Of a DNA stretch of 64,000 bases, positions 8,382-59,900 are shown piece by piece (position 1 is the stretch's first letter; each line of letters begins with the position of its first letter). This DNA comes from Liolophura sinensis (taxonomy: Eukaryota; Mollusca; Polyplacophora; Chitonida; Chitonidae). A model generated the notes under the pieces. It did no database searches. It was not told the origin of the DNA and was given only the letters and a program-made list of their open reading frames with translations. Location of the stretch: NCBI RefSeq assembly GCF_032854445.1, contig NC_088296.1, forward strand, positions 5,810,435 to 5,874,434, read 5' to 3'. Both the position numbers and the translations under genes were made by a program.

Positions 8382-8522
8382 TCAAGCGCCATATCCATGC
8401 TCATCAAACCATCTTCCTATTGCCTCAAAGTTGTTCTTCATCCACTCTATGTTACTTTGTGTCGTTACGATAGAGTCCTCGAGATCTTTCGCACCCGTGT
8501 AGTCGCCAATAAACCTTTTAAG
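8382..8522 (-). CDS. Gene A exon 21: C-terminus and stop
   Basis: Residues 947-992 and stop [23 protein letters not shown], then [20 protein letters not shown], matching the final NxxWxxxNxxxVxxWL helix of M1 enzymes. Acceptor TATTCAG|CTT. Confidence 0.93.
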   Translation of the reverse strand, partial: LKRFIGDYTGAKDLEDSIVTTQSNIEWMKNNFEAIGRWFDEHGYGA

Positions 8523-11500
8523 CTGAATATACAAGAATTGAAAGGGAAAAAAGTAGTCAGGATTTATTGACAAAGATGGTGTTAATGAACATTCATGGTG
8601 AGTTTAAAAGGAATGAAATGTAATATAGTTAAAACCGTACAGGATAGAGAGTGAAACCAGGGCAACGACGACAGTGTGATAGCTGGCAAATTGTCACATG
8701 TAATTGGTGAAACATGGCCTCTTGTCAGTTTACCTCAGTTAGGATTTCGTTTTAACTGTTCACGTAACTAGCAGCAATTTATACCCCACCAAGCCCTATG
8801 GCTTAAGCAGAAATAGGTAAAACAAAATGCTGTGATGTTAATTGCAATTTATAGACCTCACTTGTCTAAAATTACCGAAAGTATTGTGTTGTAGAGACAA
8901 TTTTTTTTCACGATTTAGTGCCAGTGAGATGCGTATACCTCAGTTTCAAAACTTATGACACATTGTACTTTGAAACTGGTAGACTCAGTATAAAAGTCAG
9001 TATAAAAGTAACAGGGAACTCATAAATTTTCCCGCCTTTCACAAAATGGCGCAAATATAAGTACCAGTCTCGTTCTTGCGTGTATTGCGTGTATGTTTTC
9101 ATACACACTTAAGCATGTTCACGGTTAGTTCTTCAGCGTTACAGAAAAAAAACTATGTGATTTACTTCGACTTAAACCTCTTCGTGCGTCCTAGCCCGAT
9201 AGTGTCTCCCACTGAAATGTATTCTACAGAATTCCCACTATTTCAGTGATTCTCTGCCAAATGGCATACTTGTTTTATTTATTCATTTGTCCATTCCTTA
9301 GAGAAACGATCAATACACTGAGTCTCAAGGCTCACTGGCAGTGTCAGACGATTTCTCGGTTGCACGATTCTGGACAGACTGTTTCTGTACGTACACGATT
9401 ACGTAAATGCACCGCGGTTCCTCTGGGATCTTCAGATATCCCTAGTTTTTTTTGGATTAGTGACATAAGTGGCCCCATTAACCAAGGGCAAGAGAGCGTT
9501 CAGGTGACTGGATGAGTGAGTTAAGTGACCTCTGTATGAAGGTCATACGAAGGGGTATGAAGGGACCGCCCAGGCGTGATGAGAGTTACGTAACGTCGCT
9601 AAAAGCCGTTTGTCGCGTTAGTCCAGGAGTATGGGAGAGCAATGACCTCAGAACATTTACTTGACTGGAAATATTTTTTTCTTTGGAAAATTTATGTTTC
9701 AAATCCACTTACGTTTCGAAGGTCAAAGTCTGTGTTGAAAGCTGTCTGAAACGTGTGTTTGAACAGCATGTATTTCGTACCTCCTCTGAAATACATAAAA
9801 GAACAAAACAATAAAAAAAGGTATCTCAAGTAAAACATCACAGTACACGGTAATCGTGGACATGTGTGTTCTCAGACATGAAGGTAAAACAGCACAGTAC
9901 ACGGTAATCGTGGACATGTGTGTACCCAGACATGAATGTAAAACATCACAGTACACGGTAATCGTGGACATGTCTGTACAAAATATCACATTACACAGTA
10001 ATTGTGGACGTATGTGTGCGCCCAGGTGTGGGGGCGAAACATCACAGTACACGGCAATCGTGGACGTGTGTCTGCGCCCCGGTGTGTGGGCTAAGTATCA
10101 CTCTACACGGTAGCCGTGGACGCGTGTGTACGCCCAGGAGTGAGGGCAAAACATCACTGTATACGGTAGTCGTGAATGTGTGTGCGTTCCCAGGTGTGAG
10201 GGCAAAGCATCACAGTACACGGTATTCGTGGACGTGTTTGTACCCAGGTTTAAATGTAAATTATCAAAATACAATATTATTATTGTCTACATACTTGTAT
10301 ACACTCAGATAAAAAGGCGAATGATCCCAACATCACAACATACGGTAATGTTGCACCTGCATTTGTGCCTCCAGATTTCGAGGCGAACGCTTTAAGCATT
10401 AGTCAATAGAAGCGGTGGGACTGTTTACGGACAACCATGTCAACGAACAGAGGGATGACCGGACGGATGGAGGGACGGAGAGATGTCTAACAATTCCCCT
10501 GGACAAAATTGTGCCAAGTTGTTGAACAGGAAACCGAACAAAGTACTTACGACAACTTTTCCCAGTGTTCTTGAATATAACGCCAGAGAAGCGGTTTGTT
10601 TTCCGTCGAGCACCGCTTCGCCATGGAGCGTACTATGATTCGCTGAAGCACCGAGTCATCCCTCAAGCTCCATGATAAATATCTAAAACAGCAAGCACAC
10701 ACGTAACTTTCAAGGAATTTACATATTTTTCCACTCTCAGTTTGTTGGGCAGGAGAGGAAAAGGAGTTTATGACGCTCACTTAGCCGTTTGCTTAAATTT
10801 AATTTTTGTTTACACCAATATGTATGTGGGAATGCTCGTTTAGCTTACCAAAGGTCAGGTGCTTTAGCACGGACACTCCGGTATCCTCCACATAGATCAA
10901 AACATCGCTATTGGCATGTGTAATTTTCGTAATATTATCTCCACATTTCGGACGAATACTTCCTTAAACCTGTACACTTAGAGCACTATTGAGACACATC
11001 TAACAAATCTATGCGTCGAAACAGACATTCGTATACCAGCCGTCAACCAATAACGTTCCAGGTCAATACTCGAAATGCCAATCCCCAAAACGACGTGTAG
11101 CACAAACCACCAAAGATAATTTATCGATACGTACATACGTTCAGTTTGGTGTCTTGTGCTGGAAATATTGACCTTTACTGCAAAATATTTGTGAGACCTA
11201 TTCTCTTAATAACTAACAATAGAATCCTTAATTTTAAACCGTTCGACCAGTCAGAAAACGTTTTCATGTAACCTTTAGTCGATGTGAGACCATTATCACT
11301 GTTGCCAGAGGCGGTGCGTTTAAACCGCAACGGAGATAGTGTCTGAATGTCCTTGAAAAAGTATAAAAGGTCAATCCAAAAAAAGAGTTTTACATAAAAA
11401 TAGGGAGATCTCGTACCAGTTTGATGAAATTGCACAAAACTATCAGGAACAAAATCAGACCAGATGAATTTACCTCAGTTAGGCTTTTATTCGAACTCTT

Positions 11501-14500
11501 GACGTAAATGCATGCAGCCCACACGATCATTAGCACCAAGACTTAGGAAGAATTAGGTACAAAGAATGCATTGGATAAGATAAAAAAAATGTATTGATGT
11601 TAACTGCTTACTTGAGGATAATCCAAGGCTGTGTAGTACAGCCTAAAGCCGATATGATCCTTTCTTGCTCGTCGCTCTCGTTGGACTTCTGGTACATCTG
11701 GACTGCGAAGTCCCATTCCTGCAGGTCACCGTGAGCTATAGCGGTACAGTACACCACATCTCTATAGTTCATCGGTACTCTGTCAACAAGATGAAACAGA
11801 AGTGGAATCTTTACACAGTTATAGCGGTACAGTACACCACATCTCTATAGTTCACCGGTACTCTGTCAACACGGTAAAAACAAAGGAACAGAATTATCAC
11901 ACAGTTATAGTGGTACAGTACACTACATCTCTATAGTCCAATGATTCACTGTTAACACGGTAAAACAGAGGCACAGATTTACTACACAGTTATAGCGGTA
12001 CCGTACAACACATCTCTATAGTTCAACGGTTGACTGTTAACACTGTAAAAACAGAGGCATATAGTTATTACACAGTTATAGCGGTACAGTACACCACATC
12101 TTTGTAGTTCAACGGTTGACTGTTAACACGGTAAAAACAGAGGCATAGATTTACTACACAGTTATAACGGTACAAAACACCACATCTCTATAGTTCACCG
12201 GTACACTGTCAACACGGTAAAAACAGAGGCATAGAATTATTCCACCGTTATAGCGGTACAGTACACCACATCTCTATAGTTCAACGATTCACTGTTAACA
12301 CGGTAAAACAGAGGCATAGATTTACTACACAGTTATAGCGGTACAGTACACCACATCTCTGTAGTTCGCCTGTTCATTGTCAAAACGGTAATGCAGATAT
12401 GCAAAATTAGTACACAGTTACAGTGGTACAGTTCAGGCCTCTCCAGCTTGTATCATGTCTAACTCGTACTTCAATCAAGTACAGAGTGATCCAGATTTTC
12501 AAAGAGAACAGACAAAGTACAATATTCCACTACACGGGAGATAAACCCACCCAACGTGCTCTGGTACACTTCACACCTCACAACACTCGAATAACAACTA
12601 AAAAATCAAAATGGGAGTCAAATGGTCAAAAGTGAGTGTCATGTCTTCACTATAATCTCTTCCACTACGCAAATCTCAAATCAAATATCAAATCAAATCT
12701 CAGATTAAAATGGTTTCTAAGTATGACAGACAAACAACCAAACCCATTTATACATCTACATTATTAAAAGTCAGGAAGAATAGCCTGTGCCAGAACGTTC
12801 TTCTGCAGGCTAGTCAAACTGTTGTGTGCTGAAGTGAACAAGCTTTACAAAAGCATGCAACTCCACAAAAGCCCAATTACAAAAGCCACAACCAAGGCCC
12901 TAGAAGTCAAGGTACCCCTGTGTAACAATTACTCAGTATTAATGCATCAAAACCAAGCCAATTAATACACAGATGGATAGCGGTACAGTACACAACATCC
13001 CTTATGTACCCACTACATTAGGTAGAAACACTTGTATGCTGGACATACGATTCTCTATTAGGCTTGTTCATATGTTCATGAAAACAGAAGGCATGATCAC
13101 AGTGCTGATTTAATGTTGTATCGACTTTGACGACAAGTATGTGAATGCTTCTGTATTGCAACAACTCGTCAGACCGGGGCCTCACAACTCGTCAGATTAG
13201 GGCCTCACAACTCGTCAGATTGGGGCCTCACAACTCGCCAGATTGGGGCCTCACCACTGGTCAGACTGGGGCCTCACAACCCGTCAGGTTGGGGTCTCAC
13301 AAATCGTCAGATTGGGGCCTCACAGCTCGCCAGATTGGGGCCTCACAACTCTTCAGAATAGGGTCTCACAACTCGCCAGATTGGGGCCTCAGAACTTGAC
13401 AGATTGGGGCCTCACAACTCGACAGATTGGGGCCTCACAACTCGACAGATTGGAGCCTCACAACTCGACAGATTGGGGCCTCACAACTAGTCAGATTGTG
13501 GCCTCACAGCTCGCCAGATTGGGGTCTCACAACTCCTCAGAATGGGGTCTCACAACTCGCCAGATTGGGGCCTCACAACTCGACAGATTGGGGCCTCACA
13601 ACTCGACAGATTGGGGTATCACAACTCCTCAGAATGTGGTCTCACAACTCGACAGATTGGGGCCTCAGAACTCGACAGATTGGGGCCTCAGAACTCGACA
13701 GATTGGGGCCTCACAACTCGACAGATTGGGGCCTCACAACTCGACAGATTGGGGCATCAGAATAAGCAGAACATTTTAACTTATATCATGTATATGGCGG
13801 CCTGTGTTATGGGTTTATTAAGTCGGTGTATCCTTGACTAAGATAATTTATGAAGAACTTGCCAAACATGATATAGGAAGTTTTGCAGTGATGTCATAGC
13901 TGCTCTGAGCCAATCATCAACACAGCCTTTGGTCACATAATCAGCATACTGAACGTCATAAAACACCAATCAGATGAATAAATAGAATACGCAATGGAGC
14001 AATTTCAACTAAGGAGTGATGACCTATAATAAAGTGCTAATTGCTTTTTTAATACAAAATGAAAACTTTAGCCTTAAGGTAAGATGTATTTTCCGGAATG
14101 GGTAATCTGAATGTGTATAGCCTTCAAGTATGACAGTTTCATTTGTCCATGTGTACCTGAGCATTAAGAAATGGGCAATATTCAAAAATGGGCAATAGTA
14201 AGAAATTCAGAGAATTTCGCGCATTTTGCCCCATTTTATTTATCACTACGTTCTCCTTGTGAAGATGCTCGAAGCTACGAATACTGACAAACAACTCACG
14301 GGTTAACTGTGTCATCTTTCATCCAGGCGGAGAAAAGCTTTTTCGCCTTCGTCACACATTCTGGTATGCCATAGTGACACGCCTGCGTCAATATCAGGTT
14401 CTGAAACAAACTATAATCCATACTCCTTACAGCGCATGCGCCGCACTCTACCTTCGCTTGCATCACTGTCACCACCAGTAAATTTTGCATATAAGTCTTG

Positions 14501-17500
14501 GGCAAAGCCGAGGGCACTCGGATAACGGTAAGATATTTGTATACCAGCCGTCAACCAATAATCGCAAGGCCAATTCCCAAAGTGACGTTTAACACAAGCA
14601 ACCAAAGAGCTAAGAAAGTATATGACGTTCAAAGTTAGGACGAAATCATGCAAAAATAAGAGTTTAACCGGTGTCAATGACGAAACCAGGAACAGATGAC
14701 AAACACGAATGTAAGTGATCCTTTGTCTGGTGGTATAAGCATACCCATGTATATATTTATTAACTGTGATCAGAACACATCATTTGGAGTAATTCTAGAC
14801 AAGTGACATCTACTAAATTAACATTAATACCACTAATTCTGCTAGAGGTGCTAGAGGCCTGGAAAGTTGATTCTGTTTAAGCGTTTACATAAATAGTTAA
14901 GGTAAACATAACTGAGGTTTTACGGTGTCCGAATAGGCTGGTTTCATCGCTTACGTGGGACTATTCATCAACTAGCACATTGTCGCCTCTGCACTATATC
15001 TTTTTGTTTTACTCCCCATGCTGTGGTTTTATGCATCCTATTAATACTTAATATATGTGCAGTCTTCTAAGCTAAGGTGAGCACTACTGACATCTAAAGC
15101 AATTAATATCGATGAATGCAGACTGCAGGTCTTCGTGAGGATATAAATGACGGGGCTACGTAATCGCGCTATAAATGCAAACGTCAAACTTGTCTTGTGG
15201 TGGCAGTGATGTAGAGCTAGCGTAGTTAGCTTTAAAAGAAACGATAACAAATAATATAACTTCAGTTATTTCAAAAGAGACGTAGAAACAGGCCGAAAAG
15301 GCCATGGACATTATTTTCTGACGTGCTTAGTAACTCTATTCATCAACTTTTAATGACGAATTTTTAAGAGGCAATAAGATTAGCCATGTTAGAGCAACGG
15401 GAAACACGATGTCGCGTCCCGCGGTATCCCACCATCATAGAAGTAAAAAGTAAAACAGAGCCCGGATGAAGTTAGCGGAAACAGCAGCGTTCTTGGGCTA
15501 TAGAAATAACTCTCGCCTGATTGGTTACAACTGATAACATGGCGTGGCTGTCGATTGCCTCAATGTAGGGTAAAAGATTTTGTTTTCTTTCAACTGCGAA
15601 ATCACGGTTGTGCTACGGGCACAAAAACAAAAGGTTATGCTTTTTACATATAATTTATAATTTATCGATGCATATATATAGATTTGGTCTAGTGTTGACC
15701 CAATCACCACTTCCGTTTTATTCTGTGAATAATATTGTCTAAAGAATTCTATGCCCGCCATTTTTCATGTTTCTGGTGTACATGTCCGTGTTTTATATGA
15801 AAATAATTCCGACTGTCTAACGTTTGAGCAGGTACGAGTTATACTGAAAAGTTTGAAAGTCTTGTCAAGCGGATACAAGGTATCACGTAGTGATAAGAGT
15901 GCGAGTGATGTCCCCTTGATATTACTAAGTACCGATCCCAACTGATGACATTGAAAGATCCCTATTTTGATCGAAAACATACGTCAAAATTTTGATGACT
16001 ACTTTCTCACAAGGCGGGCAAGGTAAAAATTTTAGATTGATAGCTTGGAACTCTTGCGCGGAAGCTAAACCTTGTGGTGGGTCAAAGCCAAATTAGATGG
16101 TTACATATTTAAGATTATCCCACAAACAGGCATCTACGAGTGTGAAAACATATACGAACTATTTAATTTGTAACACTGTTTGTCATTGAATTCTGTCATA
16201 CTATAGTTGTTACGGGCAAAAGAAGAAAAAAAATTATGACATTTCATCTCAGGACAAGTTGATATTCTCCAGGTTACATACAGCGTTGGCGGCCAATGTA
16301 TTTGTGTCATCGGTACAACGTGAAACACGTATAAAATAATTAAACAAACATTTGTGTCATTGTAATTCAAGGCCTTTGTCCAGCACTTTCCGCTGCTACT
16401 GCCAGTTCTAGGGGAGGATGCTACTTTTGTTATTCCTGCTGTTTTTGTTGTTGTTGGACTTGGTGTTTTTCGAGTTCCTGATTGCTGGGTGTATTTTTGA
16501 AATGCGCATATGCAGTTGCATTCGAGGGAGCACGTATTGGTATAAGTTGTAAATATGTGCAGTACAGACGCTCGATTGCTACTCACGAGTCTAAATGATT
16601 TTGTTTGTTTCCCCAGCCAGTTTTGAAATACTGTCTTCGAAGGAGTGACCTCATAAACATCTGCAAAAAGAAACTAGTTTGTCACAACAGAAAGTATTAA
16701 AATTACAATTGCTGTCATTTTTTTGTTCTCACGCGCCAAAGGAAAAGGCACAAATCCATCAAGAAGTCACCAATAACACAACAAATTTATCTAAAAGAAC
16801 GTTATATGCCAAAATAATTTGATTATATAATGTCATAATAACATAATACAAGACAATAAAATTCATATTTAATTCCATTTAGAGAAAAAGATTAACTAAG
16901 ATTTCAAACAAATTAAACCTACAACACAGAACGCAGTCAGAAACCAAGCAGGGATCCGGGGTAAACCCACGGCAATCTGCAGGTGGCTGTCAGACCTTCC
17001 CACGTACAAAACAACTCGAAAATAAAAAACAAAACAAAAAAAACAAGGTACACGAGAAATATGTCGATTTGGATAAGTATCTGTATTTGTAGTGAAGTGC
17101 CAGATACAAACAACCGACCTTTGGCAAGCTACTGACGAATTTACCCCATGTAATGTACAGATATACACACCATGGTACTGACGAATTTCCCCCGGTGTGG
17201 TGTACAGATATGCACACCAAGCTACTGACGAATTTCCCCCGATGTAACGTACAGATATACACACCATGCTACTGACGAATTTTCCCCCATGCAATGTACA
17301 GACACACACACCATGCTACTGACGAATTTACCCCCATGTAATGTACAGATATACACACCATGCTACTGACGAATTTTCCCCATTTAATGTACAGATATAC
17401 ATTCCATGCTACTGACGAATTTACCCCCATGTAGTGTACAGATATACACTCCATGCTACTGACGAATTTCCCCCATGTGATGTACAGATATACACACCAT

Positions 17501-20500
17501 ATCGCTGGAAGACAAGGGGAATTCATTGAATGTTAGACAGAGCAAACGATCACAAGAGTTAATTGTCACCAAGATCCCAAAAGCCGCGAATTGACAGATG
17601 ACCTGTCCAAGGTCGGATTTGAACCCGCACCTGGTGTATCCTGATGATTGAATGACAAGCACCTTAATTTCTTGACCACGGCCCGCTCCTTCCTAGCTAG
17701 ATAGTACTTGGATTGTCTGAAGGGGCAACTATGCTAAATAGTTAAAAACCATGATCACCCTTACCTGGAAAGAAGGATACAGAGTTGTTTGAGACAGCAT
17801 GTGGCACGCATACTGAAACTCCGAGACAACTGCTCGCCAGGGGATGTAACTCTCTTCGGCCTGCAGATATTGTGAAGCATTCAAAGCAGTCTCGGCGTCA
17901 AGTAATCCAGACCTTGCAATAAGACACACAAGCATTCTACAGCATGGCAAAAAGTAACACAAGCCAGCTAATCAAATATTAGCCATATCAAAATATCATA
18001 TCGTACTGTATGGACGAAGTGAAGTTTCAGTTGGGCCGCACCAAGTTACCCCCTGGAGATCATTCTCTCGTTTGATAGGTGCGTTTTTAAGATTAAGCTG
18101 TGGTTAGGTGGGGCGCCAGAAAACGGGTAATGACAAGTTTCAGTGTTAAAGAGGCAGAAGGTAGTTGACGATCTAGAGCACGTTAATCCAGTTGGAGGTA
18201 ATTTAAAAATCTTGGCTCTAATCCAATACAAAAGACAGGTTCCGTCAAATATATATATTCTACCTAAACTGAAAATCCTCAAGTTTTAAGATCATTTAAG
18301 ATCTCTTGACATTTCTGAGACTCTCAAACGCTGGTATCTTGTTTTTTCACATTCTGTTGCCTAGAAAATATTTTTCGCTGTCGTGACATAACCTACATAC
18401 GGCATGATTTAATAGGCGAGGTCCCAATTCTCGTAGTTTCATGAATCTAAAACTAATTTTGCGTTACGTGATAGTCACTGTTGTATTCAAAGGGAAGTAA
18501 TTCAAAGCCCGCCCATTCAGAATATTTAGCTGTGTTAAAAGGGGGGAAAGTGTCACAAGACGAAAACGACCCCCCCTCCAAAAAAAAAGGTGCAAAACGG
18601 AAATAATTTTGTTGAAAATATATCAAAAGGACTGGAAGAAAATTTATTCTATAACTTGAAATGGTACCAAGTTATAAATATATACGATGGATGGTACACA
18701 TTAAATTAGATGACAACAAGTAATTTGATGAGCTGATTTTAAGTACAAAGATGGTGGGAATAAAGCCCAATGGACTTGTTCTGTCCCGCTGAAACACTGG
18801 TATATCAATGAACAATATTATAATAATGGCGGGGCCTCCGTGGCTCAGTTGGTTAGCGCGCTAGCGCAGCGTAATGACCCAGGAGTCTCTCACCAATGCG
18901 GTCGCTGTGAGTTCAAGTCCAGCTCATGGTGGCTTCCTCTCCGGCCGTATGTGGGAAGGTCTGACAGCAACCTGCGGATGGTCGTGGGTTTCCTCTGGGC
19001 TGTGCTCGGTTTCCGCCCACCATAATGCTGGCCGCCGTCGTATAAGTGAAATATTCTTGAGTACGGCGTAAAACACTAATCAAATAAATAAATAAAATAA
19101 ATACAATAATGGTGAATAATGTAGTATACATTTCCTAGAGTGAGCAGTAAATTGGCTTAATTGCCAGTACATATTAACAATGTGTTTCAGATCGTTTGGT
19201 TGAGAAGATATTCCCTTGAATGTGACTGGATAATTTGGAATGAATGATGCAGTCTATTCCATTCGCCAGGACCAGAGAACCTTTAGACATTATTTCCCAG
19301 AACAATCAAACTATATGATCGATGCAAATTTAAATGCCGGATCCTTGTAGATAAGTGGTGGGTATCAGACCGTTTGCGGAACAACTGACGTAGTAATAAA
19401 AGAAGGAAGTCGTTATTGTACATGAACTTGGGACAAAGGACAAGGCATGAGAAGAGGTTGATATTGGCAAGATAAAGTATTTTGTAAGACTTGAAAATAG
19501 GGGCTTTACCGCCAAGTCGGTGTGATGCGGATATAACACTGAGAGCACGCTCAATTCGGTTTTATGCGGATATAACACCGAGAGCACGCTCATTTCGGTG
19601 TGATGCGGATACAACACCGAGAGCACGCTCAATTCGGTGTGATGGGGATATAACACCGAGAGCACGCTCAATTCGGTGTGATGGGGATATATGACCGAAG
19701 CACGCTTTTGAAGAAGCAATAGCCGTTTCAGGTGTGTGGTGTACGCATTTACCCACAGGGGATTAGTATACGACAAATAAAGGTATATGAGAGAATAGTG
19801 GGGAATAAGCAATGTTTTCTTATTTACTGAGTCTCCGTGGCTCATTTGGGTAGTGCGCTAGCGGAGTGTATGACCGAGGAGCCCGTCACCAATGCGGTCG
19901 CTGTGAGTTCATCTTATGCTAGCTTCCTCACCGACCGTAAGTCGGAAGGCCTTGCAGCAACCTGTAGATGGTCGTGAGTTTCCCCATAATGCTGGCCGCC
20001 GTCGTATAAGTGAAATATTCTTGAATACGGCATAAAACACCAATCTAATAAATAAATGAACAAATATTTATATGAAACAAGACAAGGCTTGCGTCGTCAG
20101 TAAATAAGATAAACTTCAGTAATTCGGGTTACGCTGTGATACCATTTATATAAAATCAAGAAAAGAACAGGTCCATGTACAGGACCATGTACACTAGGGA
20201 TCTAGTACAAGACCGAATACCCTCATAGTTTACAACCTCGGTGCGGGCTGAAATGTATCTCACAAACCACTTATTTATTTATTTATTGATTTAGTTATTG
20301 ATTGATTTATTTATTTGATTGGTGTTTTAAACCGTACTCAAGAATATTTCATTAAACCACTTATTAGTCAAAAGGGAATAACTTGAAGGCAAAAAAATCC
20401 ACACAAAAAATGAAGTATACACCAGATGAAAGACCAATAAAAACAGTCCAGGGAAAAAGATGGATATAGTTTTTCTTGGAATTTTTCTAATCGAGTAAAA

Positions 20501-23500
20501 TTGTGTTAATAGAACAGGTTCTACGGTTGTCTGTTGTGACCCAGAAGTTATCAATTACGTCATATTTATACTTTTTGCCTGAAATAATTCGTTTTGTTTC
20601 ACAGTCAAATCGGCGGATGCATTCATAGATCTATATGTATATTCATTTTGAATGATTAAACATAGCAGTTTAGTGTGTTTTAAGTAGCAAAAAACCTTAT
20701 GTGACGTCACTGGCCCCATTGTGATCAGAAAAGATTTTTTTTTTTTTTTGATTGGTGTTTTACGCCGTACTTAAGAATATTTCACTTATACGACGGCGGC
20801 CAGCATTATGGTGGGTGGAAACCGGGCAGAGCCGGGGGGAAACCTAAGACCATTCGCAGGTTGCTGGCAGACCTTCCCACGTACGGCCGTAGAGGAAGGC
20901 AGCTTGAGCTGGTCTTGAACTCACAGCGACCGCATTGGTGAGAGGCTTCTGGGTCATTACGCTGCGCTAGCGCGCTAACCGACTGAGCCACGGAGGTCCC
21001 CGATCAGAAAATACCACCATAGAATACAATACCCAAATGCTTTAACAAACTGTACAAAAAAAATAAGTCCAACTATTTTCCTGGACAGATTTTAATGATC
21101 TTTCATCTGATAATGCTTCATTTTAGTTTTTTCTTTGCATTGAATGCGCAGTTCAGGATGTGGCATGATATATAAAACTACAACAATACCTCATCAGCTT
21201 CTTTCTTAGTGCTTAAAAATGGCTTTAAACTACAGTTTTCCTAAGTCAGTGGTCAGTACAGTCAGACCGGGAATTAAGTAGCATACCGCGGTGATGTCAA
21301 CAGTAATAGTTGGCAAAAAAAGCTTTGTTGAGGGGAGAGCCCGAATTCGGGAGACTAAGTTGGTTCCACGTTCCCAGTATGTTTATCAATGACGTCATTT
21401 CCGCACATTTCCCACCAGTGACGGAAAATATGTATAGTAAGAGATTGGTTGCTAAGAAACACAAATATCCCTAAAAATGAAGAAAAATCTCCTTTTTGGC
21501 ATATCTTTCCTCATTTTCGTTAAAGTCATGTTCTTTGTTTTGTAGTACATTTCATGTATCTTTTAAAAATAAATGCTACAGCTAATATAACTACTATTTC
21601 TGTATTAGAATTTTCCCAACGGAGTATAGTATTTTAAAATATCAGAAACGTAGTTTGTGGGTGAGTGAGTGCTTGGGGTTTAACGTCGTACTCAACAATT
21701 TTTCAGTCATATGACGAGAAAGTAATCCTTAGGGTGCATGTACCTCTTTGCTGCAGAACGGATTTCCACCGCTCTTTTATTTTGTGCAGCTTACCGAAGG
21801 CAAGTAAGCCGCCCCACCCGAGCCATTATACTGATACGGGTCAACCAGTCGTTGGTCTATCTATCTTCATGCTGAACGCTAAGCCAGGAAGTTACAACTT
21901 CCTCTATTAAAATCTTAGGTGTGACTCGATCAAGGATTGTTCCTGGATCTACCGCTCTCGAAGTGGACGCTCTACCAACTGTGCTATCCGGGCCAGTTTA
22001 ACACTTGTTGTTTGTTGGGAATCAGAAGGCATCATTGGCGTCATATACATGTACGTATATTTTCCCTTAAAATTAAGGCCCATTCCCCGAATGCATTCAT
22101 AGCTCTATATAAACGTGCTTTTATAATGCAGTAGTCTAACACATCGTGAGAGATAATGGCCTGGTTAGAAGTCACCAGTCGAAATATAGCCAAGAAGAAA
22201 TCGATGGTCGAAAATTACGATGTTTAGCCGTTTTCCTTAGCGGAGTTTTATCCTGATCTACATAGATCTTCGCTGATTTTTATGTAGGTCGAAGTCGTTC
22301 TAGCCATAGCTAAAACGGCTTTTAGCGCCAGGGGTAGATGCACAAGAGGCAATCAAAAGGCGGAGCCCGTTCCGTCCCCCTGGCGGGTCCCCTCCCCCAA
22401 CCATGTTCAGTCTTCACGTAAACACTTACATAAACTTGGGGCAATGTACGCCGAAGCGTGTCTGCCTACATAAACAATCATGTACGCCGGACGGCGTACA
22501 TGGATGCACGTGGAATAACCCCACAGCTTGTCCTATAACTGCACAGAGATCAGCGTATATAATATTCACTGTTGTAAGCTTGTGTTAGCTTAGGCCACCA
22601 AGTGCACAAGTCTATCTATATACCGGGATGTTTACACAGTCGCAGGCATACGCACACCCTCGATTCACCTATATCCGGTATTGCACAACAGACCACAACT
22701 TGCTATTTTTATTTCGAGGATTACAACTAGCAATTGGGCATGGGCGCCTAGCATAGCCAAGCAGCTACAAACAACAGCCAAGCAAAACCAAGCAAAATCA
22801 AGCAGCTAGAAAGCAAAAATGCGCAGTAGACGAGACTTTTTTGGGTTGGGTACCAGAACGCAACATGGAGCCCCAAGGAAGCGGAAGTTGGCAAAAGCAG
22901 CAAAAGAGAGCCCACTAGCAAGCGGAAACGAGCGAGAACGCCATACAGCCCGCTGTCAGGCACAAGACAGACCCTCGGTCCCAAACTCGAAGCTTTTGGT
23001 CGGCTTCTTTATAGAGGCAAGCACGCTAGAGAACAGCTCCGAATTGGAGTCAAGCGTGGTGGGTGTATAGCCAGGCACCATGTATCCAGTCCGCAGACGA
23101 GGGCAGACCCGTTCGAGCTGTTCCAAAACCAGGCTTCGTCCTCAAAGCAGGAGTGGACCTCAATCGAAGCCCTTTTGCTTTGTCACAGGCTTCGATAAAA
23201 GCCAGGCGGTCTTTTTTCTTCTGCGGGGTAGTCCGCTCCTCGCCCAGACGGCAGAGTTTGGGAGCACGTTATCGCCACAGCGCCTCGACCCCTCCCAGGG
23301 GTCCACCTCTTTCTCGAGAAAGAAGCCGTGTGTTGGCGTTTTCACGTCCGTTGCTGACTTTTTGCCTTCGTCGGTTGGGACTAGGACGAGGATGGTTCTT
23401 ATGTATATATATTTCGACGCCCTGGTCGAGGCGAAGCGTGTGCAGGTGTATTCCCAAGCGCCAAGTCGGATGCTTTCATTGTGTCCATTTGGCTTCGGTG

Positions 23501-44500: not shown

Positions 44501-47500
44501 AATTGGACATTTTTAAATGGTCTTTTGTCTGATAATACTTCATTTTCGTGGTTTCTGTGCAATTTTCAGACACTATAACAAATGTTTAAGAGATGTCTTA
44601 GCAACATGGGCCAGAGCGAGGGTCCCAGAATTGAACCAGAAGTGACGGGTTGAATCACCAACAATAGCATGGCTCAAAGGTTCCCATTCAAGCTTGCATG
44701 TTCTCTTCACGGGTTTGCCTTTATGGAAAAAACAGGCGACATTCTTTCTAATTTGCAAGTATGTTTGGCTGGCAATTGCATTCGATCAGATTATTTGATT
44801 TACTGCCCCAGATACATGATTCAGCATGCAATAAAATTTGTTTGGTCATGCTGAGGAATTGGTCCATTTCGGTGTTTTTAATAAACCATGTGTTCTTCAC
44901 GGCGAAGGCGCCACTCACCTTTGCTCACTTCTCACTCACCTTCGCTCACTTTTGATGAGAGGAGTATTAGACAAAGCCGTATGGTCGTTCCTCCTCACGA
45001 CCGTGAGGTCAAAGGTCGCCTTGAATGCAGGCTCGTCGAAACAGGGGAAAACCTTTCTAGCGTACACAGTAGCTAACTGGGTTCCGGTCACATACCTAAA
45101 ATATTTGTTTTATTTACTTATAACTTCTAGAAAATAACACGCCTTTTCAAAACGAAAAAATGACGAACTACTTACATTCAGGTAGACCAGATTTACCTAC
45201 AGAACAAGAGAATAATGCTATCGCGCAGCTATACCTCGTAATTGGTGGCATGAGACATACAAGGCTCGCTTATACGTATCTCTTAAAATTTATCATAAAA
45301 AAGACATAATAGACTACACTATAGGCAGTGAAACAAGAACACCGACAACAGCATGATAGTTGGCAAATGGTTACACGTAAGCGGTGAAATACGGATACAA
45401 CACAAATAGAAACGACGAGAGTGTGATAGTTGGCAAATGGTCACACATAAGCGGTGAAATACGGATACAACACAAAGAGAGGCGACGACAGTGTGATAGT
45501 TGGCAAATGGTCACACGTAAGCGGTAAAATACGTCCTGTTGTCAGTTTGTACCTCAGTTTAGGTTTGATTTTAATTGTTCAGTATGTTGGAAGTCCACAT
45601 AGTTTTTCTAAGCTATTTTTTCAAACCTTATAAGCCTTGTTTCGACATCAAAATTCAATGCCTAGGGTTATAGACATTTGTGTGTCCAAATATTTATGAA
45701 TCTTTTTAAGATGTTGTATATCCAAACATTGATGTATGTTTACAAGGTGCTGTATGTTCAAAAACTGATATATTTTTATACGGTGCTGCATGTCCGAAAA
45801 TTGGTGTATTTTTATAAGGTGCTGTATGTCCAAAAATGGATGTATTTTTACAGGGTGTTGTATGTCAATGAAGCGAGGTATCTTTACACGGTGTTGTAGT
45901 CAAATAAATAAATAATTGGTAATATAGTTATATTTATTTATTTATTTATTTATTTATTTATTTGATTGATGTTTTGCGCCGTACTCAAGAATATTTCACT
46001 TATACGACGGAGGCCAGCATTATGGTTGGAGGAAACCGCGCAGAGCTTGAGGGAAACCCACAACCATCAGTACATTATCGACAGGCCTTGTCACGTACAG
46101 CAGGAGAGGATTACCACATATTTGAGCAAAGAAGGTATAAAAGAACAAACTCACGTAGTTGAGTTGTTTTCTGTATATTCCACTACGTACAGTCCTCTCC
46201 ATCCGACGCGAAGAGGTCCGGAAAACTCCATGATCACGTGATACCTACTTCCGGCTGTTAGTGTATCGTCCAAGTTCAGGATCAACAGCTGTTTAGAGTG
46301 GCTGATCTGGTAACCATGGATACGAGGTGTGGTCATGCCGTTTGTCCCCAACAGAGTTATGGAGCTGTTGACGATCATCAGATTGAACATGTTCAAGGTG
46401 ATGTTATCCGAGGCTTCTACACAATCCACTAAAATATCCACAGAGCCGCGGAAGGTGAAGTTTTTCGGGTCTTTTCCGTACATCCGTGGCTCCAGCTCCA
46501 CGCGGTAGTGTACCGGAAGAAGAGACCTCGGCAAGCGCATGTGCCTGTCGATCAGTGGAACTTCAGTCCTTGCCTTGGTTACAGAGGGCGTGGTTACAGA
46601 AGGCGTGGTTTCGGAAAACGTGGTTGCGGAATCCGTCGCTACAGTGACTTTTGGCGCTGGCGGTGGGCTTTCAGATGAGCAGTCTGGCAGAACGCCTATC
46701 AAGATAAAATGATGGGCAAATTATGTGGTTATTTTCTTTTGAGATGTTATGGATTACTTTCTTTCTTTTACCCTCCTTCCTGGCCCGGCAATGGCAGTTT
46801 AACCGCATGCGCAGAGTAAAGTTCGTTAACAGCCACTTGTTTTCCACCCATATCTGTACGTCACAAAGTTCGTCCTTATCCTGCAAAAGGTCAGCGGTTT
46901 TACACTGGCACTCCGGTTTACGGCACCTCATCATACTATCAGCCATAGTATAAGTGATAAATTCTTGAAAATTTCATGAAGCAACAATGAAATATAAAAA
47001 TAAAAATGGAATATTTCTACCCAGAAATTTGAACATTGTCAATTTTTTGTTTTCACAAAAAAGTTTAGAAAAGTTGAGCTGGGGTATATTCAACCAGGAT
47101 ACATTTCTTTCAAGGATGATGACCTATGACCTCACACAATACGGCATTGATTTATTGTTCCCACATGGCTCATCGGTTACTATTCACAATAATTGTATAT
47201 GTTCAGTGTTATTGAACAAGAAATAAATTATGTCATGATTCGGTGGGGAAAAAAAATACCAATACATGCAAGGCAGTATAAGTTAGGAATATAAACTGGA
47301 CTGTCACACAGAGAATAAATCAAGACGCATACCTCAAATTCCTTCCCTGAACACTGCGAATTTTTAACCCACCTATATCTCCCCCCATCGTGTCAGCTCT
47401 TCTATTGAAAAAAATCTCTCTTTTTGGCGGACCAGAAAAAGATAATAATAACAATAACACAATTTCACCCGATTTAGCAGCCAATAAGAAGCCCGTATTT

Positions 47501-51680: not shown

Positions 51681-51734
51681 TTTTCAAACACATGCCTTTT
51701 CTCTTAATTATGATAATATTTATAATTGTATTAA

Positions 51735-51838
51735 AACCACTGCCCGGTTTTCTCCCACCACAATGCTGGCCGCCGTCATATAAGTGAAATATTCTTGTGT
51801 ACGGCGTAAAACACCAATCAAATAAATAAATAAACAAA
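51735..51838 (+). mobile_element. SINE-1, 3' part
   Basis: ACTGCCCGGTTTTCTCCCAC, CACAATGCTGGCCGCCGTCA, GTACGGCGTAAAACACCAAT, tail. Intergenic. Confidence 0.83.
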
Positions 51839-51959
51839 TTATTTGGTGTTTAAGATTGTCTTGAAAATGAGTCTTACGATTAATGACTTGGAACAGTCGA
51901 TTTTTTTTACTTACTTCTGCTTAAGCTATTGTGCTGAGGGGGGGGGGGGCTGTAAATTG

Positions 51960-52215
51960 CTACTATTTATGCATTTATATAAACAGTCAGAATAAAATCC
52001 TAAGTGAGGTAAATTGACAAGAGGCCGTAATTCACCAGTTACGTGTGATCATTTCCCAGCTATCACACGGTCGTCGCTGCTCTGGTTTTACTCTCTGTGC
52101 TGTACCTCTATCACACTGTCGTCGCTGTTCTGGTTTTACTCTCTGTGCTGTACGTCTATCAAATTGTCGTCGCTGCACTGGTTTTACTATCTGTGATGTA
52201 CGTGTTTAAATATAT
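51960..52215 (-). repeat. Dispersed repeat C copy, three modules
   Basis: AGGCCGTAATTCACCAGTTA, then CTATCACACTGTCGTCGCTG with TTCTGGTTTTACTCTCTGTG repeated. Intergenic between genes A and B. Confidence 0.85.
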
Positions 52216-52809
52216 TTTATGTCTTAGATTCAGTAACATCTCACAGCGCATATCTTTAAGTATTGTTTAAGAATGTTTGTCATGGACCTCAAGTCAGACA
52301 GGCAGTTTTAAAACAAACACTCTAACAACTCAGCCACATATCGCTTCAATAGCGGCTGTACCTGACGGTCGCGTGTACGGATAGATTGTATCTACTGGGA
52401 ATACCAAGTATAACTATCTTGTAAGTGAGTATGGACACTGCGCTCAGAATCTCTGGCACTCTCCGTCACAATCGTGTCTAATTCCGTTTATCCCGTGGCT
52501 AGGGGGAGGGATATTAGTCGTGTTGAACTAGATCGCCACGTTGAATGTATGAACAGTTGCAATCATAGCGCAACTTAGGTAGTATTTTGATTATCTACAA
52601 CATATAAATTAGCATGGTGAACGATTTAGATACTGATTTCAGTTCTTCACCTTGATCATTCCTTGCGTCTTTCAAACGTCATTGCAAACTGTCCACCGGT
52701 TCTGGTTGTATGAATCCGTCCTAAAGGGTTTAAAGAATCGACGCTGATTGGCTGACCGTGGAGATATGGTTTCCTGTGATAAACCCTGCTGTCCATTTGT
52801 AACGCTTGA

Positions 52810-52955
52810 AGTTATCTATTTATTTGATTAGTATTTTACGCCGTACTCAATAATATTTCAACATTATGGTGGGAGGAAACTGGGCAGAGCCCATGGAAAA
52901 ACCCACGACCCTCCGCAGGTTGTTGGAAGTTCTCCTCACGTTCGGCAGGAGATGT
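52810..52955 (-). mobile_element. SINE-1 fragment
   Basis: TATTTTACGCCGTACTCAAT, CATTATGGTGGGAGGAAACT, CCCACGACCCTCCGCAGGTT. Intergenic between genes A and B. Confidence 0.83.
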
Positions 52956-53848
52956 AACGTAAATCTACCATACCTATAATTCAACTTACGCACGCACAGT
53001 GTGGACTTGTGTGGGATTTGAACCACACAAGAAATTCTTTTCTTTTTTTTTAGATTTCTTTATATATTGTCAAGCTATATGTGAGATAAGTTTATATACA
53101 GAATAAATCTATACGGACTATATGCGGTATTCTTCCAATGAAAGCTCAACGCTGTTTATTTTAGCTAACAGCATATCGTACAATTACACCGCGAAAGGGG
53201 GCACCTGGTTATCAGCTTAGCTTCGAAAAAAAAAGTCTATTAAAGATACTGTCATATATTCGAGGTATAATTCGTAAGACAAAACTTGTTTTCAAAATTG
53301 GACGAAAAAGGGTATTATCCTATAAATTTAACAGCATTTATCGTTCACCATGGTTAGCTACGAATATTTTAGCTTGGCCTATTCCATCGGCTACACCTGT
53401 TTCATAACAACTTCAACCGCATACCGGAAAGCCCTTGCGTCATTTCGAAGACAAGCATTGGCAATCCACCTCAGCGACAGCGGATCGATTTCCCATCAAG
53501 TTGCAAAGCTTTCTTCCCTTAGTTTCCCTATCAGGAATTTGAGTGGAGATGTCTCAGGGGACAAAGATTATCAGGCTAGGCACTTTCGGGGCTGGGAGAT
53601 TTAGAAACAGTGCTGTGAAGTCAGAAAATGGAAAATTAATTGTGGGCTCTGACTTTTTGTTTTCTCTACGTGAGCTGACTTACACACTTACACACACACG
53701 CTATACCTATATTATATTCAAACTTCTTTTTCCTGTGGATGGCAGTTAACGCGAGACAGTACGGGATCTGTAGGACTAAAACAGAAATATCTGATACCTC
53801 ATGGGTGTGGGAAAATTTTATTTTTGTACTCTTTATTTTTCGCTTTCA

Positions 53849-53990
53849 TCAGGCACACGGTCCTAACCCTCCGGGCGTTGAAGGCCGATCGGATGTGAAC
53901 ACGTGACTCAGAACAGTGAATAACTGAGGGTCTTTCTGCCGGAGATTCTCGCGCATGGCATGCTCACTCGTACAAAATCTTCCAGAACAC
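53849..53990 (-). CDS. Gene B exon 7: C-terminus and stop
   Basis: Residues 266-312. CSGRFCTSEHAMRENLRQKD, PQLFTVLSHVFTSDRPS and a PCA end, then TGA. Acceptor ACCAG|G. TTTATT (AATAAA on the minus strand) lies about 15 bp beyond the stop. Confidence 0.8.
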
Positions 53991-56900
53991 CTGGTCAGAG
54001 AAAGAGATTGTTATTATAATTCAATTATATATTACATAAGTAAAAGATAACATTTTATAATCAAGAGTATGAAATGAAAACGACGAAAGATATGCCAATA
54101 AAATAAGTTAAAAATTTTGTCTTCTGAGGCATATATTTCGTAATAGCCCTGTATTTTTATGTATATTTTTCGTCAGTGGTACGGAAATATTCAGAAATGA
54201 CGTCGTCGATGGACATATTGGAACGCAGGATTAGCCACCCCAATTTAAGCTTTTACCCTCCCAAACAATGTTGTTTGACGGCTATAACCTTTGACGTCAC
54301 CCCACAAGCTACTAAATTTCCGGACTGACCTGGGGAGCCTGAAGAAAACCGTAGATTAAAGATATTTTACAAGAAACCTATGAAGATTTCTTTACTTCTA
54401 TATGTTAGACCACCTTATATACTCCGTATTACGATACAAAAACCAAGCGTTTTATATGAACTAATTAGAATAATTAGTAATCGTTAATATTATTAGAAAC
54501 AATACACGCTTGGGTGTCGTTCCACAAAGGGATTCAGGATAACATTTAATTTTAACATGTTATGTCAAGGTAGATAGTATCAACACAGTCTGCTATCGCT
54601 TCGTGTAACAGGGTACTGAACTAGAGCTTTTTGACCGATTTCCGAAAGACCTTACTCCAAAAAAAGTGTACATTGCACTACATCCGTCACACCCCCTATC
54701 AGGGAATCAGTCTAGCGCATAGCTGATTTACATATTCATTCCACCGGCGCCTGAGTGCATGTGTTCTCCGTTGAAAAAAGTCGTAGAAGCTTCCGCGAAA
54801 TATTCGAGGTAATTGCTCATGGCGTAGGAGCTACTTGTCCAGATGTGATGTGCCTTGGCGTGATTGTATGCGGCGGTTATCTGGGTAAAAAGGAGATACG
54901 TGTATGAAAATGATAAAACACATAAAATGTTTATCCTTCCAAAACAAAAATGATGTTTCATTTCTCAGTATACATAAACATTTCGAGGCCTCATGCTGAA
55001 GGCTTTAACCGGGGCGAGACCGTCATAGTTATTGGAAAAATCCCACACAATACTGATACTTCGTTTACATTAAATTCAAATTTTAAAAACTTTCGGAACT
55101 TCAGTTAGTTTCCATACGTGATGCATAGATCGAAGATTATAACACAATGGATGTTTTATTTTTTTGACATTTTAAATCTTTGATATGCAGAACGATTTAA
55201 GACGTATATCACAAAGGGTAAAACCAGAGCAGCGACGACAGTGTGATAGCTGACAAATAATCACACGTAACCGGTGAAATAAGGCTACCTGCATACAGAG
55301 TAAAACCACAGCAGCGACGACAGTGTGATAGCTAGCAAATGGTCACACGTCACCGGTGAAATGCAGCCTCTTGTCAATTTATCTCAGTCAGGATTTTATT
55401 CTAACTGTTGCAACAAGGGCTGCAACAAAATGTTGTTTCTGAGATACAGGAAAAACCTGTTTAACGTGTGTGCAACACAGAGAAGCTCCTATAGATAGCG
55501 TATATTTTGCCTGTGTATCTTGCATTTTGGACCAAAATTACAGGCAAACTTTGCCAAAGACTTGGCCTTTGTTACCAGTAGGAGACCTTTCCCGCCTAGA
55601 GTTATTAGGGCGTAAGTTGTGGCGTCTGTTTTTCGCACTTGCATGTTCAGTAACGTTCAATGAGGAAACTGGTAGTGTATTACTTGTGCGTTCAAAGAGA
55701 ACAATGGACTCGAATCGATATTCGGTAAAGTATCCCGTTAACAATTAAGTTTTGATATATTTGTTTATTTGGTTGTTCATATGAAGGCAGTCAGGGTTGT
55801 GGGTAGGGGAGTCCACGCCGCCTAAGAGCTGCCACCACTGAAGTATAGTGCTGGAGACACCAGACATGACACCGGGCCAACACTATACTGACAACGCGCC
55901 AACCAGTCAACTTTAATGTATTATAATTCATAAATCACCTGGTCCTTCCAAAAAGATGATAGAGCGTAGTTGTGGACGGTATGGGTGAACTCGTGGATGA
56001 GGATGTTATTGGTCCTGTGGTAAGGGTCGGACCGATCACACAAGATATTATCATCCAATATCACGGCTCGTTTCCCGCCAACGCCGGCTAACGTTTCGTA
56101 CTTCCGGCCGTCAAATCCACAGGTTTTCTGACAGGAACCGGAACAGCTGTCTAAAGAGGGTTAAATCAAAAGGAATTGTGGGTAAGGATAAAATGCAAGC
56201 AGTAATAAGGGTTAAGGATTCCGACGAAAACCTCTGTAGAACACAATCACAAAAGTAAAAATCTGATACTGTTTTCTCTCAGTATTAAGTAAGCTGTTAA
56301 CTCCACAATTAGAGCAAGTATTCATTATCATTTGTGGCTTCAGTTTCCGCCAGGAGCTATGACAGCGTGAAACCACAGTGGTCGGTAATCATAGTTCACC
56401 GCACCGCAGTACCGAATATGTCCTCTGTGAGCATCAAGAAGACGACTACTCATTGTCATAGTGTATTGAGTTGAACAGCGTATGAATATGCATAGTGACA
56501 ATGCGGTGAGTCAGTTAAGGAGAGAATGCTGATGATAACTGCATAGTGAGTTTTTGAGGGATGAATACTCCAGGTTACAGTGTGGTGAGTCTTTTGAGGG
56601 ATGAATACTCCAGGTTACAGTGTGGTGAGTTTTTTGAGGGATGAATACTCCAGGTTACAGTGTGGTGAGTTTTCTGAGGGATGAATACCCACAACGACAT
56701 GGTGGTGAGTCGGTCAGGGACAGAACACTCATTGCGACAGTTTTTGTGGTAACCATGTGTGATGAGTCGTCTATTGAATGAATACCTAGGATAGCAGTGT
56801 GGTGATTCGTTCAGAGATTGAATACCCACGATAACAGGGTGGGCCAGTGAGTCGACCAGGGGATGAATACTCAAGATGACAGTTTGATGAGTCGACCAGG

Positions 56901-59900
56901 GGCTGAAGGTTGACGATGACAATGTTATGAGTCGAACAGGGGCTGAAAGTGGACAATGACAATGTTATGGGTCAACCAGAGACTGAATACTCACAATGAT
57001 AATGTGGTGAGTCGACCAGGGGTTGAATACTCAAGATGACAGTTTGGTAAGTCAACCAGGGGCTAAAGGCTGACGACGACAATGCGACGAGTCCACCAGA
57101 GACTGAATATCCATGATGACAATATGGTGAGTCGACCAGGGACTGAATATTTACGATGACAATGTGATGAGTCGACCAGGGACTTCATACTAACGGTGGC
57201 AACCACGAAGTGACCGAGGACTGAATGCTCACAGTGATAATTTGATAAATCGACCAGAGACTAAATGCTTTCGATGACAATATGGCGAGTAGTATATTGA
57301 CTGAAAACTCACGGTGACATTGTGGGGTGTCCGCCAAGGACCTGTATTCAGGATAAACAGTCAGATGTTCTTCTTTGGTGAAAACCCCAGCTGTGGCGTG
57401 CGTTGCCAAACGGTCGAATATATCACGAGGCATATATCTGGTCATCTTGCTGATAATCTCAGCTGCCTGCCGAACGAAGTCAATATTAGTTAATCAAGAC
57501 CAAGATATATATTTAATCTGTATTCACATGTGAATAAATGAGTATGGACCGTGGGGTGCGGCATAAAACAACAATAACAAATAAATTATGGCTTCATTTA
57601 TTTATTTAAGTGATTGGTGTTTTACGCCATACTTAAGCATTATGATGGGGGACTCCGGGAAGAGACCAGGAGGAAACCCAGGACCATCAGTGGGTTACCA
57701 CAAGACCTTCTAACGTACGGCCGAATACATTTTGACTTAACTCCATTGCCGCCATATCGTGGTGAGTCTGTACTTGTCAGTGTTAGCGTAAATCGGTATC
57801 AACGCCAATCATTGACCGCCTATAACTAGGCGATATGTGATAACAAAAACAGTATTTTCAATAATTCTAGACCAGTCACAGTTAGAATAAAACCCTAACA
57901 GAGGTAAACTGACACGAAACCGTATTTCACCAGTTACCTGTGACCATGTGCCGTGACCGGATATCACACTGTCGTTAGTCTACTAGTAATTAGCCTTGAT
58001 GTAGCTCAAAACCTTGATGACAGATCAAAAATGGCTGCAAACCTTCTCATGGGCCGTCTCGGACACCGCCCTTGTGGCGGCGATCTCAAACCAGTATCCA
58101 CTAGAGTGTCGTGTACTCGAGATGACACCACCCTCTCCCACGTACTTGTATTTAAAGTTCGAGCCTAAACTCGCGCGCGTCGCCGGTAAGTGACGCAGGA
58201 GCTCGTGGTCACGTGTGCTATAAGCATACAAAATATTCATGTTAGATATTATTTCCAGACTATACGTGTGAAAGTTGAAAGAAAAGATAACAAATAACAT
58301 AGACTTAGCTTTTCTTAAACAGGACTGTTTTGTTCTGAAGTTTTTAGGAAGTCTATAAACGAATCCAGAATTCTACAAGACCATGGGCAATTATTAAAGA
58401 AACCTCAAAGACGATGCTGCGTCATTCGTACCCCAATCTCATATGGCTAAACGGGGAAACAGCTGCATTCTCTGGTTATAGAAATCCCTTGTGACCGATT
58501 GGCTTAAAATTGGAAAAATGGCAGCTCTTTCGATTATTTCCAAGTGTGTGATTCTGCGTGCTTTAAATGAGATATCTAAGTTATGCAACACCAGAAAATT
58601 AGAAAGGTATACTTTTGAAACTTTTCTGTGGCATACCTTATCGATGTATATCTTCATGTGGTCTAGGGTTGTCTTTTTCGTTTAATGTAATGCAAACAGA
58701 TTAACAAAAATAAAAACAGAAATATGCCTAATCACTAAAAGAGCATAAATATATACTCAAACTAGAGGTTTTCATAAGTCAGGAATCCAGCCCATATCTG
58801 ATGAATCAAATTGGTCCAAAAATAATATCCCTATATAGGCTTTATTAAAAAAATTTCCAAACATTTAACATTAGATTATATGTGTTTGTAATCAATTTTA
58901 TCATTGTTAAGGCCACAGTGTTAATTGCGGTCTGTTTTGGTTTATGGGCCCATATAGTTTTTATGATTCATATAGTTTTGAACCCTTTCAAGTCCTAATT
59001 TATGGAAGAAAGGAGTTGTGCACCAGAACATAATGTGCACAAATCTTTTATCTTAGTACTTCTTACCGTTGTGCGCAAGATTTACATGATGCACGACTTA
59101 ATTCATTGTAAAGACAACAATTTTGTCTTTTAATTTGGATGTTCTCTCTTTAACCATAATATGGACTGAATAAAAATACAATTTTTACGGCAGTTGGAAG
59201 TAGTATAATAAATAGCGTGGCCACTTTTAATAAATGAACCGCAGAAACCGCTCGAATAACAGTAGTCTGAGCCCAAATAACTTCTATATGGCGCAAAACT
59301 ACAGACTACAGTACCGCAGTGAATGTTCATAATAATGATTCAGTTAAAATAACTTACCTGGTAACATCGGTGGGCGCGGTTCTGTTATCAAAGGCAGGTG
59401 GGATGCAAAATACACCTGTAATATACAAACTTTACGCTAAAAAATTTATCTTTTAATTTTAACAGAAAGTGAAAGTTGTCTCAGAGATGCTTCAATGCAT
59501 TCTGTTATTGTGACATAAAACTGTGTCTTATTCAACATAATAAGACTATACAATATTTATGTTAAATTAATAGAATATGTGTGCTGTATTCAGTGGGATA
59601 AGTTTTGGCATGCCCCTTCCAAGCAGGAAGAAGATAAGAAACATGGCCGATGTGAAGTCACATGTGATATCCAACCACAACAACAACGCCGTCTTGTGCT
59701 CGTCCCAGTTCAAAGACCAAAAAGGGTGAAAAAAAAATCCTGTGTAGAAGAGATTCTCGAGAATGACTGATATACTTATTCGAGGGCGACCAGCATTATG
59801 GTGGGAGGAAACCAGGTACGGCCCGGAGAAAACCCACGATCATCTGCTAGTTGTAGACCTTCGCACGTATGGAAGAAGAGGAATCCAGCATGAGCTGGAC

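Follow-up and report, generated by a model that had tools for sequence, protein, structure and literature searches.

Minisatellite arrays at splice junctions of two adjacent genes in the chiton Liolophura sinensis

The window analyzed here is a stretch of 64,000 nucleotides (nt) from the chiton Liolophura sinensis (contig NC_088296.1, positions 5,810,435 to 5,874,434). It contains two genes on the reverse strand, an aminopeptidase N-like gene (gene A) and, upstream of it, gene B. The two genes together have 50 splice junctions, and five of these lie within tandem repeats: four arrays, called A1 to A4, and a short duplication, S5 (Table 1). The original prediction, made from the letters of the sequence, placed tandem repeats at these sites and a splice junction inside each of them. 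Repeat finding with Tandem Repeats Finder (TRF) bore out the first claim, and exact gene models bore out the second. The prediction had counted two 3′ and two 5′ splice sites among the arrays; with the two-copy site included, the total is two acceptors (gene A exons 17 and 11) and three donors (gene A exons 8 and 3 and gene B exon 4).

Exon models admitted AG alone at acceptors and either GT or GC at donors, and both models match NCBI proteins of L. sinensis letter for letter. Within that constraint, 24 of 25 introns have a GT donor, and the sole GC donor belongs to gene A intron 10 (ACGG/gcaagt). This intron (33105 to 26404), the only GC-AG intron in the two genes, is also the one that bears the 6.2-kb array A2. 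The draft protein of gene A had its best match, at 86% identity, to an L. sinensis aminopeptidase N-like protein, with runners-up near 40%; this match, and the exact one of the complete model, led to rejection of a lancelet origin for the window. Gene A encodes an M1 aminopeptidase: the Pfam domains M1_N, M1, and ERAP1_C all exceed the cutoff, and the closest solved structures are those of aminopeptidase N. The match of gene B to PF07737 is weak yet over the cutoff. Its protein is one of a mollusc family that shares the PF07737-like domain and an HEFTH motif; relatives occur in other molluscs, and the named ones are mostly uncharacterized or hypothetical. Rfam at gathering scores gave no match in the window, and a tRNA scan with the bacterial code found no tRNA there.

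Table 1. Positions of the genes, the repeats at splice junctions, and the exons that they adjoin
Feature	Positions	Strand	Description
Gene A	8385..49281	-	Aminopeptidase N-like; 20 coding exons; 976 amino acids; identical to NCBI protein P0001, Liolophura sinensis
Array A1	11734..12435	-	About 8 copies of an 85- to 86-bp unit; spans exon 17 acceptor (gene A); 43 coding nt in each unit
Gene A exon 17	11612..11779	-	Supplies exonic part of A1; encodes VYCTAI stretch
Array A2	26385..32561	-	69 full copies, including the working copy, of an 89-bp unit; spans exon 11 acceptor (gene A); GC-AG intron
Gene A exon 11	26309..26403	-	Supplies exonic part of A2; encodes YKWDIPF
Array A3	37664..38162	-	About 10 copies of a 50-bp unit; holds exon 8 5′ splice site (gene A); 4 exonic nt secure
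Gene A exon 8	38159..38293	-	Final exon base at donor, 38159
Site S5	44912..44951	-	1.9-copy duplication, 21 bp, of exon 3 5′ splice site (gene A); 12 exonic nt, 11/12 identical
Gene A exon 3	44940..45095	-	Final exon base at donor, 44940
Gene B (LOC135463061)	53852..62140	-	7 coding exons; 312 amino acids; identical to NCBI protein P0121, Liolophura sinensis; Pfam PF07737
Array A4	56444..57324	-	About 21 degenerate copies of a 40-bp unit; reaches exon 4 5′ splice site (gene B); 12 to about 26 exonic nt
Gene B exon 4	57313..57466	-	Final exon base at donor, 57313

The two acceptors lie inside their repeats. The exon 17 acceptor (11779) falls within a TRF repeat at 11737-12432 (86-bp unit, 8.2 copies), and the exon 11 acceptor (26403) within one at 26388-32558 (89-bp unit, 69.1 copies, about 6.2 kb). 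All five repeats extend solely toward the intron, a necessity if the exon is to remain whole. Judged by array edge, the exonic share of a unit is 43 nt in A1, 16 nt in A2 (about 21 nt by alignment), 4 nt in A3, and 12 nt in both S5 and A4; for A4, this figure comes from a wraparound alignment that runs to 57324, and local alignment of the exon edge gives about 26 nt. The expectation of 15 to 42 bp of coding exon per unit thus held insofar as coding exon is included, but the shares are not uniform. The coding part of the unit is secure for A1, A2, and S5 and well supported for A4, where it lies in degenerate copies.

The copying of exon sequence was examined by aligning the 30-nt edge of the exon to its array minus the exon itself; the whole set of 50 exon edges, along with 500 shuffles, served for comparison. 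The array's own exon edge came out on top of the 50 for A1 (score 28), A2 (score 19), S5 (score 10), and A4 (score 14). None of the 500 shuffles reached that score for A1, A2, or S5, and a single one did so for A4. The best copy in A1 is identical to the 30-nt exon edge at 29 positions. An ungapped comparison with the consensus unit, anchored at the junction, gave 21/24 identities for A1, 18/24 for A2, 10/24 for A3, and 17/24 for A4; among 2,000 shuffles, these scores were reached by none for A1, A2, and A4 and by 14 for A3. The corresponding figure for S5 was 11/12.

The direction of copying was read from an alignment of 11 aminopeptidases (six from this chiton or from bivalves, two from lancelets, and one each from a nemertean, an arachnid, and a marsupial). 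Among the codons repeated in A1, the residues YC are identical in all 11 proteins and the whole VYCTAI stretch in 7; in those repeated in A2, Y-x-W is identical in all 11. Conserved residues within the repeated codons mark the exon as the source and the array as its derivative, and on the evidence of this alignment the exon-to-array direction can be regarded as shown for A1 and A2. The exon is presumably the source for A3, S5, and A4 as well, where the repeated residues are less conserved.

Inside the window, each unit is specific to its own locus. Those of A1, A3, and A4 match their own locus only, A1 with the addition of one orphan partial copy in the same intron, and the A2 unit has just a 21-bp low-complexity stretch elsewhere. 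Compared pairwise, units A1 to A4 have nothing longer than 7-mers in common. These results agree with the original prediction that what the arrays have in common is the junction rather than a transposed element. Insertion of a mobile or dispersed repeat beside exons was considered, given that the window does contain a dispersed minisatellite family (48- and 70-bp units at 7 and 10 places, respectively). The junction units are not dispersed within the window, however, and A1 and A2 hold conserved codons of their own exon, so that this explanation is extremely improbable. A transposed element as the origin was rejected, the junction units having no real match at a second place in the window.

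Several other repeats were recorded in the window. The orphan partial copy of A1 lies at about 12976-13002, some 540 bp past the array. The related 48-bp and 70-bp units, which make up a dispersed family unlike the junction arrays, occur at 410-739, 8636-8712, 32994-33068, 42317-42484, 45335-45533, 52025-52203, and 55200-55362. Immediately downstream of the gene A stop codon, positions 6575-8199 hold about 73 copies of a 22-bp unit, with (TA)43 inside the array, and a 37-bp array of about 13 copies (63503-63997) continues to the window end. An open frame at 974-1441 contains an HCLRAT...GH pattern, which we take to be typical of tyrosine recombinases; it has no Pfam match.

Array A2 carries signs of turnover. 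Its full copies match the unit at 82 to 99% identity. Over about 0.8 kb, from 26922 to 27722, seven of nine windows of 89 bp are 96 to 100% identical to sequence 1,348 to 1,349 bp (15 units) away, the other two being at 82% and 76%; a gapped search of the same block pair gave 92% over 1,470 columns. A2 thus contains a recent block duplication, which fits unequal exchange or long slippage. Its 70 segments are mixed in type, with the exon-like GGGACA in 25 and the variant TTGACA in 28. Exon-type columns showed no consistently faster or slower change among the copies of the four arrays (0.862 versus 0.819 in A1, 0.832 versus 0.886 in A2, 0.799 versus 0.764 in A3, and 0.633 versus 0.650 in A4).

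Many copies retain the splice dinucleotide: 7 of 8 full copies in A1 and 68 of 69 in A2 (both counts including the working copy), 7 of 9 in A3, and 10 of 21 in A4. At each of the five junctions, the annotated protein agrees with use of the exon-proximal site, from which we infer correct splicing there. Use of a decoy in place of the annotated site led to a premature stop in every case tested (6 of 6 in A1, 67 of 67 in A2, 7 of 7 in A3, 10 of 10 in A4, and 1 of 1 in S5). Intron gain by internal tandem duplication, in which a duplicated splice signal serves to make a new intron or exon, does not agree with the annotation: each junction is represented in the proteins by a single site, none of the array copies appears there as an exon, and all tested decoys give premature stops.

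In a splice-score model trained on the two genes, no other site scored as high as the real one in A1 (0 of 29) or A4 (0 of 66). Such sites numbered 4 of 38 in A3, 1 of 3 in S5, and, among AG sites, 116 of 372 in A2. Since so many A2 sites are as strong as the real acceptor, local strength alone cannot choose the last copy. In exon definition, a splice site pairs with its partner site across the exon, and the A2 acceptor is likely chosen by pairing with the downstream donor over the 95-nt exon 11. A role for the arrays as splicing enhancers, as decoys, or as a source of alternative exons would agree with the density in A2 of acceptor-like sites at least as strong as the weakest real acceptor in the model (35 per kb versus 11.8 per kb in the remaining gene A introns) and with the unique GC donor of the A2 intron. 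Against such a function stand the premature stops at all tested decoys and the retention of GT in just 10 of the 21 full A4 copies, and we regard it as very unlikely.

Taken together, these data make it very probable that the five repeats are locally born minisatellites of the kind termed mirages in lancelets (PMC3087553; this paper and others whose numbers carry the letter e are cited from excerpts of their text). At each site, a segment of roughly 20 to 90 bp straddling the exon-intron border would have been tandemly duplicated, and at four of the five sites slippage or unequal exchange may then have expanded it. Growth would proceed into the intron only. The copy joined to the remaining exon would stay the working splice site, and the other copies would act as decoys and be spliced out with the intron. 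The exon-proximal copy would be chosen by exon definition, and the arrays would be tolerated because splicing takes that copy.

Several observations weigh against this interpretation. The exon 8 array had been described as copying the boundary, and its splice-site side is indeed repeated; the exon side is weak, its own exon edge ranking 16th of 50 with a score equaled by 217 of 500 shuffles. A3 thus duplicates the donor site, and exon copying past 4 nt is not secure. The gene B array had been described as reaching the junction. TRF rows for A4 stop at 57202, 110 bp short of it, and the final stretch consists of degenerate copies only (26/40, 31/40, and 26/40 identities); that A4 does reach the junction follows from the wraparound alignment, backed by the exon-edge match, which one of 500 shuffles equaled. 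The premature-stop outcome is close to trivial where decoys add hundreds of bases. The splice-score model was trained on just 21 donors and 23 acceptors from the same two genes. Finally, the exon ends rest on NCBI annotation and protein conservation rather than on RNA.

We also asked whether arrays occur at junctions in excess, the original prediction having proposed splice sites as preferred starting points for tandem duplication. Overlapping TRF rows were merged by hand, and arrays beyond the two gene spans were removed, as were three arrays of period below 10 (44342, 45931, and 61411); 22 arrays with a period of at least 10 remained, 13 of them with a period of at least 20. In the main count tests, the end of A4 was hand-set to 57324 from the wraparound alignment. 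Of the 13 arrays of period at least 20, 5 include a junction together with 4 or more exonic nt, whereas random seeds of each array's period give an expectation of 0.62 (P 1.8e-4); a threshold of 10 exonic nt leaves 4 arrays, with 0.45 expected (P 6.3e-4). When whole arrays were placed with exons kept intact, the expectations were 0.86 for the 5 (P 7.9e-4) and 0.76 for the 4 (P 4.4e-3). Restriction of the latter test to arrays of at least 100 bp left 4 of 11 against 0.82 (P 5.8e-3); the threshold of 10 exonic nt then gave 3 of 11, with 0.73 expected (P 0.030). The tests were repeated with the TRF end of A4 (57202), so that A4 went uncounted: 4 of 13 arrays then remained (P 2.3e-3 with seeds, 7.3e-3 with placements), or 3 of 13 with at least 10 exonic nt (P 8.3e-3 and 0.034). 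Because the window owes its selection to this very pattern, the P values overstate the case; the excess of junction arrays is suggestive, coming post hoc from a single window.

A per-position comparison gave no excess at junctions. A near local copy (at least 19/24) of the centered 24-mer was found at 3 of 50 junctions. Among randomly chosen points the share was 24.9% in introns and 2.8% in exons, and it was 12.6% for intron points 60 to 300 bp from junctions. The count test concerns births of arrays and the per-position test bases covered, so their questions are not the same. A 24-mer scan of the 50 junctions for further low-copy duplications within 1,500 bp returned four at 17/24 or better, all of them known sites; the next ones scored 16, and A3 was missed at 15.

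Two explanations of the junction arrays were weighed on these data. Splice junctions could be true hotspots of tandem duplication, for instance through internal repeats, pyrimidine tracts, or transcription-linked breaks, in which case arrays would be born at junctions more frequently than inside introns. The counts, which exceed expectation with either null and also with TRF edges alone, speak for hotspots, as does the occurrence of junction arrays in lancelets. Their post hoc origin in one window, their weakening under the stricter definitions, and the per-position result speak against, and we hold this explanation to be unlikely. Alternatively, the junction arrays may be neutral by-products: seeding would occur anywhere in repeat-rich genes, junction arrays would survive as splicing copes with them, and their number would reflect chance and the selection of a striking window. 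Arrays do occupy 24% of the introns in both genes, 8 of the 13 arrays of period at least 20 touch no junction, and junctions show no per-position excess. The number of junction arrays, 4 to 5 where two nulls predict 0.6 to 0.9, counts against this account, which we nevertheless consider somewhat probable. Repetition of the tests with TRF edges slightly lowered our confidence in hotspots and slightly raised it in neutral by-products. Preferred seeding at splice sites therefore has array counts in its favor and is not shown. Tolerance of a duplicated junction by splicing, the reason originally offered for it, would not by itself account for an excess over purely intronic arrays, since these should be tolerated at least equally well.

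The anatomy of mirages, now seen in a mollusc at several junctions of a neighboring pair of genes and with up to 69 copies, has therefore either arisen convergently or spread more widely than the reports show. A speculative and rather doubtful possibility is that minisatellites are born again and again at splice junctions in distant animal lineages, independently in lancelets and chitons, and leave long stocks of ready-made splice sites beside exons, from which introns could be gained and exon borders shifted. With a long-read assembly and RNA from five tissues (digestive gland, foot, gill, gonad, and heart), the seeding of tandem duplications by junctions becomes testable genome-wide. A2 in particular puts the spliceosome's choice of one acceptor among dozens of similar ones to a stringent natural test. 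The PacBio high-fidelity (HiFi) assembly of L. sinensis (GCA_032854445.1) was published under the name L. japonica (PMC11068029e), the species name being corrected later (PMC12441733), and the window presumably derives from it. The HiFi data are given as 1,050,568 reads, 8,769,373,110 bases, and 14x (PMC11068029e), which puts the mean read length at about 8.3 kb, long enough for single reads to span the 6.2-kb array.

The original prediction had presented these arrays as a class of minisatellites and had pointed to junction-overlapping ones at amphioxus Adh genes. The latter statement is borne out by PMC3087553e, and the class is therefore not a new one: junction-spanning repeats received the name mirages at Adh3, and they are also described in the lancelet globin genes BflGb6 and BflGb9 (PMC3087553e). 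According to the same excerpts, they affect both boundary types, have units of 10 to 160 bp, differ in length between haplotypes and somatically, may be general in cephalochordates, and, as the data suggest, leave regular splicing undisturbed. PGBD5 and troponin C are further lancelet cases (PMC3902484e). A literature search, covering titles and abstract openings among the matches listed, returned no junction-spanning minisatellite in a mollusc; as it covered few subscription papers, this is not proof of absence. Queries combining chiton with minisatellite, or minisatellite with mollusc, splice junction, and intron, found no papers in that search, and a term search of the main text of a comparative chiton genome paper (PMC12005716) found neither tandem repeat nor satellite.

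The chiton arrays share several features with lancelet mirages (PMC3087553e). Their units span the boundary (by TRF edges in A1, A2, and S5, by wraparound alignment and edge match in A4, and by 4 nt in A3), both 3′ and 5′ boundaries are hit, and units differ between genes. AG or GT is kept in many but not all copies, and there are signs of turnover inside the cluster, represented in the chiton by the A2 block duplication; in mirages, the boundary copies are excluded from concerted turnover. Unlike mirages, the chiton arrays occur in a mollusc rather than in cephalochordates, are known from the sequence of one haplotype, and affect five sites in two adjacent genes; A2 has 69 units in 6.2 kb, versus 6 and 3 units in two BflGb6 haplotypes. 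Lancelet PGBD5 resembles the chiton genes in having imperfect tandem repeats that include splice sites, its repeats being of 60 and 108 bp and lying over 5′ and 3′ sites, but its triplication of 108 bp has far fewer copies and belongs to another phylum (PMC3902484e). In recent human paralogs, minisatellites alter gene structure, some of them at an exon-intron boundary as in the chiton; there the copies change exons or may create introns, whereas the annotated chiton proteins have no new exon or intron (PMC2812944). The earthworm metallothionein gene, also lophotrochozoan, has a large intronic minisatellite, which the excerpted text places inside intron 1 with no mention of a junction span (PMC12783039e). 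The kind of array is thus known, and what the chiton adds, as far as the literature search shows, is a further phylum of hosts and the scale of A2.

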